DNA of 45,346 bases, taken from positions 1-45,346 of the forward strand of contig JAFYJV010000019.1 in assembly GCA_017537965.1 (NCBI GenBank), written 5' to 3'. Under the pieces are notes generated by a model. The model saw only the letters and a list, made by a program, of their open reading frames with translations. It did no database searches and was not told the origin of the DNA. Shown here piece by piece: positions 11,193-33,743 of this stretch (position 1 is its first letter; every line of letters starts with the position of its first letter). Origin of the DNA: Bacteroidales bacterium (GTDB taxonomy: Bacteria > Bacteroidota > Bacteroidia > Bacteroidales > F082). The position numbers and the translations under genes were made by a program.

Positions 11193-11558
11193 GCGATGAG
11201 AGGGACTGTCGCGGGCCGGGCAAGCCGGCGCGAGGAAAGTCGGGACAGCGCAGAGCACCATACTTCCTAACAGGAAGGGGTCCGCAAGGATCACAGCAAG
11301 TGCCACAGAAAACAACCGCCTCTTCGAGGTAAGGGTGAAAACGTGAGGTAAGAGCTCACGCATCGGATGGCGACATTACGATGGGGTAAACCTTATGGGC
11401 TGCAAAACCAAGTAAGAAGATGCAGGTCCGCAAGGACCGGAAGGGCTGCTCGTCCGAGTCTTTTGGGTAGGTCGCTTGAGCCTGCGGGTGACCGCAGGCC
11501 TAGAGAAATGACAGTCGCTCCGCAAGGGGAACAGAATCCCGCTTACCGCTCTCATCGC
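11193..11558 (+). ncRNA. rnpB: RNase P RNA, bacterial class A
   Basis: The catalytic RNA of RNase P, which cuts the 5' leader from pre-tRNAs. The ends pair as a 10-bp P1 helix (GCGATGAGAG at 11193-11202 with CTCTCATCGC at 11549-11558). Universal core elements are present in order: GAGGAAAGTC near 11231, CACAGAAAACAACCGC near 11304, GAGGTAAGGGTGAAAACG near 11327, CAAAACCAAGTAAG near 11403 and ACAGAATCCCGCTTA near 11531. It is about 366 nt long. It has its own promoter, and a T tract follows P1 directly, so P1 may double as a terminator stem. No protein gene lies here; open frames in this stretch are spurious. Confidence 0.96.
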
Positions 11559-11570
11559 TTTTTTTATAAT
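11549..11570 (+). terminator. Termination site of rnpB (P1 3' strand plus T tract)
   Basis: The 3' strand of P1 (CTCTCATCGC) is followed at once by seven T residues. The long-range P1 helix together with this tract could act as the terminator. Confidence 0.45.
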
Positions 11571-33109: not shown

Positions 33110-33427
33110 TTAGATGCCTTGATTCGAGGAAATTCTTCTCTTGGCTTCTTTGGAGAAAATGGTGAAGAAGTCGCGATGCAGGATGATGGAGATGCGCATC
33201 AACAGCTCCGTGTCAATGTCCTGACGACGGAAGATGTTGTAAACGTTGGTGCGGTCACAATCCAGTTTGCGTGCCAGCCACGAAACGGTGCGTTCCTGGT
33301 TTTTCAATTCCTGTTGGATGGTGGTGCCGATAAAGATGGCGTTTTCATCACCTTCAGCTGCTTTAGCTCTCTTTGCTCTAGGCTTTCTAGTGCCTTTCTT
33401 GGTTTCTTTGATCTCGTTTGTTTCCAT
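33110..33427 (-). CDS. Small XRE-family helix-turn-helix protein
   Basis: 105 residues from the ATG at 33427; the longer open frame (to 33493) runs into the hairpin region and has no better start. The first 25 residues are very basic (KKGTRKPRAKRAKA), then a HTH domain covers about residues 38-95 (IQQELKNQERTVSWLARKLDCDRTNVYNIF, ending in LHRDFFTIFS), as in many Bacteroidota XRE regulators. It should bind DNA, with an extra basic tail that could add non-specific affinity. The target is unknown. A possible -7 box lies about 310 nt upstream, and the leader between holds a terminator-like hairpin, so expression may be controlled in the leader. Confidence 0.8.
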   Translation of the reverse strand: METNEIKETKKGTRKPRAKRAKAAEGDENAIFIGTTIQQELKNQERTVSWLARKLDCDRTNVYNIFRRQDIDTELLMRISIILHRDFFTIFSKEAKRRISSNQGI

Positions 33428-33461: not shown

Positions 33462-33540
33462 AAAAAAGATGTGGGATCACTATTCACGTTCACAAAAAGC
33501 CTAGGGAAAACTTGTTCATCTCATAGTGTGTCCCACATCT
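33462..33540 (-). terminator. Terminator-like hairpin (IR1) upstream of the XRE start
   Basis: On the minus strand AGATGTGGGA (33531-33540) pairs perfectly with TCCCACATCT (33467-33476), and ACTAT pairs with ATAGT (33479-33483) after a small internal loop; the loop is 39 nt. Six T follow at once (33467-33462), as in an intrinsic terminator. The XRE start codon is only 34 nt further on. Confidence 0.6.
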
Positions 33541-33643
33541 ATGTTTAGATGTAGTAGAACACTAGCTATATTGAGATTGGCCAAGTATTGAACCGATTCG
33601 ATTAAAGAAATGTTTCCTAGGCTTTTCTTTAACGTGAAATAGT
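33479..33643 (-). repeat. Imperfect inverted repeat (IR2) of about 33 nt
   Basis: The segment at 33479-33511 and the one at 33608-33643 are inverted copies: ACTAT-TCACGTT, a divergent part, then AAAAGCCTAGG. Four or five of its bases (33479-33483) are also used by IR1, so the two cannot form fully at the same time. The 165-bp block could also be read as a decayed MITE. Confidence 0.6.
33535..33552 (-). other. Small alternative hairpin inside the XRE leader
   Basis: ACATCT at 33547-33552 (minus strand) pairs perfectly with AGATGT at 33535-33540 over a 6-nt loop. AGATGT is the first half of the 5' arm of IR1, so this hairpin would compete with it. Confidence 0.45.
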
Positions 33644-33735
33644 CGCTAATGCCGTATTGATGTTATAATAATTAGTTGATTGTATCCTTTCTTGTATCTC
33701 TTTTTTTGTGCTTTCTTTATCTTTCTTATGCAATG

Positions 33736-33743
33736 CAAATATA
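33736..33743 (-). promoter_or_regulatory. Possible -7 element of the XRE gene
   Basis: TATATTTG on the minus strand matches TAnnTTTG exactly. It predicts a leader of about 300 nt. No TTTG is seen at -33, so the call is tentative. Confidence 0.45.

Follow-up and report, generated by a model that had tools for sequence, protein, structure and literature searches.

A covarying leader RNA with competing helices, apparently undescribed, precedes DNA methyltransferase and small HTH-like genes in Bacteroidales

Transcription attenuators and terminator-type riboswitches are built from a promoter, a long structured leader with mutually exclusive helices, and a GC-rich stem with a U-tract after which the gene starts within a short distance, and the leader RNA family described here shares each of these parts. 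SAM-related riboswitches likewise are leader RNAs standing before SAM-using enzymes, and epsC/EAR and JUMPstart are leader elements too, some of them lying before polysaccharide genes. Among structured RNAs of the same phylum as the family, the motif table of PMC2864571 gives Bacteroidales-1, Bacteroides-1, Bacteroides-2, Bacteroid-trp, 6S-flavo, Flavo-1 and GUCCY-hairpin as Bacteroidetes motifs, and it lists epsC/EAR and JUMPstart for Bacillales and gamma-Proteobacteria.

The locus to be compared with these systems lies in what we call the window, the whole stretch of DNA analysed (45,346 nt; contig C19 of G000, a Bacteroidales MAG of 2.32 Mb in 41 contigs). On its minus strand a LUD-domain gene (PF02589; 34528-33860) is followed by the leader and then by a small gene of 105 aa (33427-33110, ATG at 33427), for which a protein scan of public genomes returned 14 orthologues of 88-97% identity, making 15 loci with the window; the genomes that carry them are MAGs, several from ruminant-gut sources. 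As the product has no match in Pfam or NCBIfam, its XRE/HTH label, which comes from the original prediction, is putative. The -7 box that had been predicted was found at 33743-33736 (TATATTTG); it fits TAnnTTTG, the promoter type of Bacteroidetes, and the alignment has TATATTTGCAT in 15 of 15 orthologous loci, the window included. We infer a transcript start near 33729 and a leader of about 33729-33428, the A-rich first part of which (33729-33654), variable in sequence between promoter and structured domain, is apparently unstructured. Two ordinary features were also seen in the window: a strong intrinsic terminator of 12 bp with 10 GC pairs behind the XRE gene (33082-33055, minus strand), and an RNase P RNA of bacterial class A (11193-11562, plus strand; 254 bits).

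Read on the minus strand, as are all elements of the leader given here, AGATGTGGGA (33540-33531) pairs with TCCCACATCT (33476-33467), and a run of T's follows at 33467-33462, with the ATG of the XRE gene 34 nt further on. The terminator-form hairpin and its U-run were thus located as predicted; the ten pairs and the six U are both present, with the T at 33467 counted in each. The stem is absent from the list of a simple terminator scan, because its loop is far longer than such a scan allows. The long inverted repeat upstream, 33638-33605 with 33516-33483 (34 nt, 79% complementary), had been taken for a rival of the terminator; it is there and it is conserved, and it proved to be not merely a rival: it is the core helix of the domain, P2 (33638-33631 with 33490-33483) together with P2b (33628-33616, around GCCTAGG, with 33505-33494), the 3' strands of both being placed by pairing statistics in the family alignment A1 and in the XRE leaders described below. 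Inside the core, P4 (33577-33560, ATCTCA ... TAGTG, with 33528-33518) is placed by pairing statistics in the XRE leaders. Around the core, the putative helix P1 joins GGCATTAG (33653-33646), which fits a GCATTAG signature at the 5' end of the family, to CTATTGCC (33454-33447) through 7 of 8 pairs.

Three short segments carry the argument that follows. Segment B (GATGTGGGA, 33539-33531), which we call the switch strand, can take as its partner either the ACATC part of segment A (ACATCT, 33552-33547) or segment C (TCCCACATC, 33476-33468), the 3' arm of the terminator-like stem, immediately 3' of which lies the U-tract (33467-33462). The competition foreseen for ACATCT was confirmed, as it pairs with AGATGT of the stem.

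The alignment of orthologous leaders and the search for compensatory changes, both proposed with the original prediction, bore it out. The structured domain is present in 13 of the 15 species. Over these 13 leaders the structure made of P2, P2b, P4 and B:C has 94.4% standard pair cells, against 37-50% in slid controls with partners shifted by 1-3 columns, and both sides have changed in 13 of 40 pairs, a number reached in 0 of 500 shuffles (3.5 +/- 1.5). With A:B in place of B:C the figure is 93.5% standard cells, and the four counted pairs of A:B alone have 96.2% of cells paired. Taken singly, P2 has 95.6% and P2b 92.9% of cells paired, and the window leader carries both; double changes fall in 6 of 9 pairs of P2 (4/9 in A1) and in 2 of 11 pairs of P2b (6/8 in the wider family). 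B:C is nearly invariant in this set, as 5 of its 9 pairs never vary and one shows a double change, for which L058 is the sole leader with both sides altered (A-U to G-C). For P1 no covariation was detected, since 344 of 5000 permutations reached the observed value in a swap test on the XRE set and 1027 and 462 of 5000 did so in the family tests, none of which is significant. As had been predicted, no ATG-started leader peptide was found: no ATG open reading frame is conserved in position or sequence among the 15 leaders, which thus lack this mark of a peptide-leader attenuator.

The two leaders lacking the domain (L061 and L064) keep promoter and gene, and a short hairpin of P1-like strands replaces the domain. 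The two are sisters, with support of 1.000 on about 2.5 kb of upstream sequence and 0.994 on the gene, and they stand beside the domain-bearing L065 with support of 1.000 on the upstream sequence and only 0.316 on the gene. Given this sisterhood beside a domain-bearing relative, a single loss is the simplest account.

The original prediction had not foreseen that the leader belongs to an RNA family found chiefly beside EcoRI-type DNA methyltransferase genes. A DNA search showed that the core recurs at another type of locus, and with the sequence of that locus relatives were detected in 22 of 99 genomes from the genus. Of 19 references prepared from these, 18 were aligned without structural guidance as A1 (L100, a near-copy of L099, was omitted), none of them an XRE leader. 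RNAalifold on A1 gave 36 pairs, 21 with double changes, and when P2, P2b and the long-range B:C were written in by hand, 98.7% of cells were paired and 14 of 26 pairs double-changed, against 28-46% of cells paired in slid controls. B:C by itself has 98.1% of cells paired in A1, with 4 double-changed pairs.

The covariance model R1, built from A1, picks up each of the 13 structured XRE leaders but not the two that lack the domain, and it matches the window leader over its full length (positions 1-227 of 227) with 63.4 bits and an E-value of 8.5e-14, E-values being rough by the tool's own statement. The XRE leaders are a divergent subclass of a wider family of RNAs about 200-230 nt long. Up to E 0.01, R1 has 101 matches in 59 of the 99 genus genomes, a count that includes at least two opposite-strand shadows of stronger matches. 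Three of the matches are in the window's own genome, where besides the leader there is a copy of 155 bits before a GDSL-like gene (G000:C27:28270-28491, minus strand) and a weaker one of 56 bits with no open reading frame directly behind it (G000:C10:17663-17890, minus strand). The distribution in other Bacteroidales families is patchy: in a sample of the order 39 of 393 genomes match at E 0.01, with scores of at least 56 bits in 22, of which 17 belong to eight families outside the genus, and with lower scores in the other 17, and in a sample of the phylum 2 of 395 genomes match at E 1e-4, one being the window's own and the other reaching 31 bits. Sixty genus matches, 18 loci from the order search and the 13 XRE leaders were aligned as 91 members, which are chosen matches, some near-identical, and not a random sample.

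Several copies per genome at different loci (three in the window's) and long inverted repeats are what a DNA-level element would also show, be it a mobile, MITE-like inverted repeat or a protein operator. We hold such an explanation to be very improbable, as R1 is strand-specific at the window (63.4 bits on the minus strand against 22.2 on the plus strand), as 88 of 91 members share the orientation of the next open reading frame and stand a short distance from it, as promoter boxes lie upstream, and as L061 and L064, which lack the domain, still have an intact promoter and gene. Moreover, the changes within covarying helices often pass through G-U pairs (A1), and therefore favour RNA over DNA. 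A mobile inverted repeat as such was rejected, since the core AAAGCCTAGRAAAC was found 11 times among the 99 genus genomes, in 11 of them, with 8 of these matches falling at the orthologous site, and the covariation is strand-specific, as for an RNA. Viral carriage of the RNA was rejected as well: the EcoRI-family methyltransferase occurs in 92 plasmid and 13 phage records, blastn with the DNA of one member found nothing similar in plasmid and phage records, and 4 methyltransferase relatives and 11 contigs with a match to a 16-base core in IMG/VR gave no R1 match better than E 0.45.

If B does exchange partners, then A, B and C should change together across the family, and they do. Segment B could be extracted for 90 of the 91 members (L211, with no aligned B segment, was dropped) and has 26 distinct sequences. 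Swap tests with one member per distinct B and 20,000 permutations gave, for B:C, a score of 20.0 with the member's own downstream region and 14.9 +/- 0.56 with swapped ones, and for A:B 15.9 with the own upstream region and 12.6 +/- 0.57 with swapped ones; 0 of 20,000 permutations reached the observed value in either test. Thus GGTGTGAAC goes with GTTTACATC or GTTCACACC, and GGCGTGAGC with GCATACGCC or GCTCGCGCC. Behind C, at least 5 T in 10 nt were counted in 59 of 64 distinct combinations with good B:C pairing, with a mean of 6.8 T against 2.7 expected from base composition, identical combinations being counted once, after removal of 19 of the 90 rows because their B:C score was under 18. 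Nine of the 11 rows in which B is GGTGTGAGT, all within these 19, have hardly any C partner (scores 8-11), and A:B scores below 14 in 16 of 90 rows, of which five are XRE leaders (L058, L063, L066, L068 and L070) and none is the window.

Based on these comparisons we propose that the leader RNA is probably a cis-acting two-state switch that controls the gene behind it by attenuation. With B held by the upstream A inside the closed P2/P2b/P4 domain, transcription would read through, whereas B held by the downstream C would form a GC-rich helix of 9-10 bp beside the U-tract and terminate transcription prematurely; a signal or a trans-acting factor would shift the balance between A:B and B:C. Comparison shows conservation of the promoter-like box, of the folded domain with both of its pairings and of the U-tract, together with covariation of the helices, and from this we infer the two outcomes and the factor that shifts between them. 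Attenuation is favoured because a conserved GC-rich helix abuts a conserved U-tract and has a conserved competing pairing; the family has the GC-rich stem, the U-tract and the kept antiterminator pairing of an intrinsic-terminator attenuator, some rows excepted. Against it stand the poor B:C or A:B pairing of those rows, the U-tracts interrupted in four XRE leaders (L058, L062, L063 and L068), a P1 without significant covariation, and a small hairpin, P5, whose loop and 3' arm contain C in many members, so that part of the U-richness is explained by pairing.

A further point against attenuation comes from predicted stabilities. The 310-nt leader folds with a z of -4.69 relative to dinucleotide shuffles, 0 of 100 of which were as stable, and the closed domain in an RNA reaching to 33478 is predicted at -60.8 kcal/mol. 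When the window RNA is taken in isolation and cut off at the U-tract, the nested B:C form reaches -43.9 kcal/mol and the best fold -65.3 kcal/mol, which leaves the nested terminator about 21 kcal/mol weaker than the closed fold. It follows that B:C must form with P2 open, or as a pseudoknot, which is what it is topologically when P2 is formed, or with help; by these calculations B:C may coexist with the core helix as a pseudoknot, or may need a trigger. The attenuator or riboswitch layout originally described for this leader holds for the conserved leader, the mutually exclusive pairings and the U-tract, and termination at the U-tract, given the weak nested form, is a plausible proposal.

The main rival, which we judge to be rather unlikely, is a translational or mRNA-stability switch in which the domain would control access to the start codon, B:C would be a native pseudoknot and the U-tract would be structural. 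The far greater stability of the closed fold, and the conservation of B:C together with P2, with which it forms a pseudoknot, agree with it. It owes its rank to the start-codon hairpins that most of the relatives tested carry: in 42 of 44 non-XRE contexts (those of 60 loci listed that have an ATG 10-60 nt behind the model end) RNA and ATG are separated by a hairpin of 8 bp or more, with one mismatch tolerated and counted without a shuffle control. These hairpins end 0-13 nt ahead of the ATG, a position that suggests an effect on translation rather than on termination. Conversely, no such hairpin precedes the start codon of the window's XRE gene when sequence and fold are read by eye, its start region being A-rich, and the U-richness after C in 59 of 64 combinations has the form of a terminator.

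In either case the family is closely tied to the genes that follow. An open reading frame of at least 60 aa in the same orientation starts between -15 and +130 nt of the model end in those 88 members, in most of them within about 35 nt. Fifty of the 88 are EcoRI-family adenine methyltransferases (PF13651), 13 are XRE genes of the window's type, 4 GDSL, 3 glycosyltransferase family 2 and 2 DUF2334, 3 encode another small HTH-like protein, Eco57I, L187 and L205 account for one each, and 10 are others. Seen from the genes, the RNA lies upstream and on the same strand of 49 of 68 EcoRI-family methyltransferase starts in the genus (76 matches minus 8 that begin far inside the profile), with 38-57 nt between model end and profile start in all but one (225 nt). 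TAnnTTTG is found 20-220 nt upstream in 67 of 89 members, where shuffling leads one to expect 0.11 (two members, with under 150 nt available upstream, are excluded), and several of those without the box closely follow an upstream gene on the same strand. The second HTH-like protein is distantly related to that of the window (a single comparison gave 29% over 48 residues and E 2e-8) and is encoded behind high-scoring RNA members at L176, L189 and L208 (G022, G094 and G073), so that the RNA accompanies this type of gene at two kinds of locus.

Separately, seven members (L193, L217, L219, L220, L221, L224 and L226) apparently occupy one shared locus in several species, judged by a similar neighbouring open reading frame of 851-893 aa on the other strand; their RNAs differ greatly in score and their methyltransferases in sequence, which suggests that RNA and gene were exchanged together there.

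The glycosyltransferase, GDSL, DUF2334 and methyltransferase targets resemble the genes served by specialised NusG paralogues, and a processive antitermination element, or a loading site for a UpxY/RfaH-like NusG paralogue on horizontally acquired genes, would suit them. We consider this improbable, as the next open reading frame mostly starts no more than about 35 nt from the RNA, and as at most one NusG-domain match is present in 19 of 59 genomes with the RNA and in 15 of 40 without it, counts that are lower bounds in draft genomes; shares so similar mean that no paralogue is required. Dependence on a NusG paralogue was accordingly rejected, there being no association with presence of the RNA over the 99 genus genomes.

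A promoter box of its own and a U-tract would also befit a free small RNA that ends in a terminator and is merely adjacent to the downstream gene, and G020 does contain an sRNA-like partial copy of the family with its own terminator-like hairpin. Against this explanation, to which we give very little credence, members stay linked and close to the start codons of genes from families that are unrelated to one another. The partial copy (L090; G020:C20, near 83388), which R1 does not match, has the promoter box TACCTTTG, a hairpin with loop CCCACA and another with loop AAAGCCTAGGAAACA, and, last, a strong hairpin plus TTTGTTTTT. Its likeness is to the 5' half of the family, and it exposes complements to B and to the 3' strand of P2b, through which it could regulate in trans the XRE leader that G020 carries.

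Little is understood of how Bacteroidales of the gut and rumen control their stand-alone DNA methyltransferases and other accessory genes. A large leader RNA with strong covariation, found repeatedly in front of such genes, offers a testable handle, one fold for many targets; its competing helices are obvious targets for mutation, and two species naturally lack the domain. Going beyond the cis-acting switch, we tentatively suggest, while leaning somewhat against it, that the family could be a class of signal-sensing switch RNAs of Bacteroidales, either a riboswitch or a factor-responsive attenuator working by the A/B/C exchange, in which case solitary EcoRI-type and other DNA methyltransferases would answer to the same cue as small HTH-like regulators and surface-glycan genes. 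The target genes support no candidate ligand for a riboswitch; if a ligand or factor were found, this would be a new class of regulatory RNA.

As for the described systems, the original prediction recognised no known riboswitch class, and among the 4227 models of Rfam none matches the window's leader at gathering or permissive thresholds (E up to 5), while ten relatives searched up to E 1 returned only three sub-threshold matches to microRNAs. A literature search that extended to sources other than subscription papers and preprints, PMC2864571 among them, found no description of such an RNA. The Bacteroidetes motifs of the PMC2864571 table are set apart from the family by this absence of Rfam matches (window E up to 5; ten relatives E up to 1), a comparison that applies to those with an Rfam number in the table, which are all but Bacteroides-2 and GUCCY-hairpin. 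From epsC/EAR and JUMPstart the family is distinguished by the Rfam result and by the taxa listed in that table. SAM-related riboswitches were considered because many targets are SAM-dependent methyltransferases; no class of them matches in Rfam, and the XRE, glycosyltransferase and GDSL targets are off the SAM theme. Unlike attenuators and terminator-type riboswitches in general, the family has neither a leader peptide nor a recognised aptamer, it stands before DNA methyltransferase, small HTH-like and glycan genes, and its B:C stem, which encloses a large loop, can be a pseudoknot. Within the limits of Rfam and of the literature searched, this leader RNA family is apparently undescribed, and in kind it is a cis-regulatory leader RNA.
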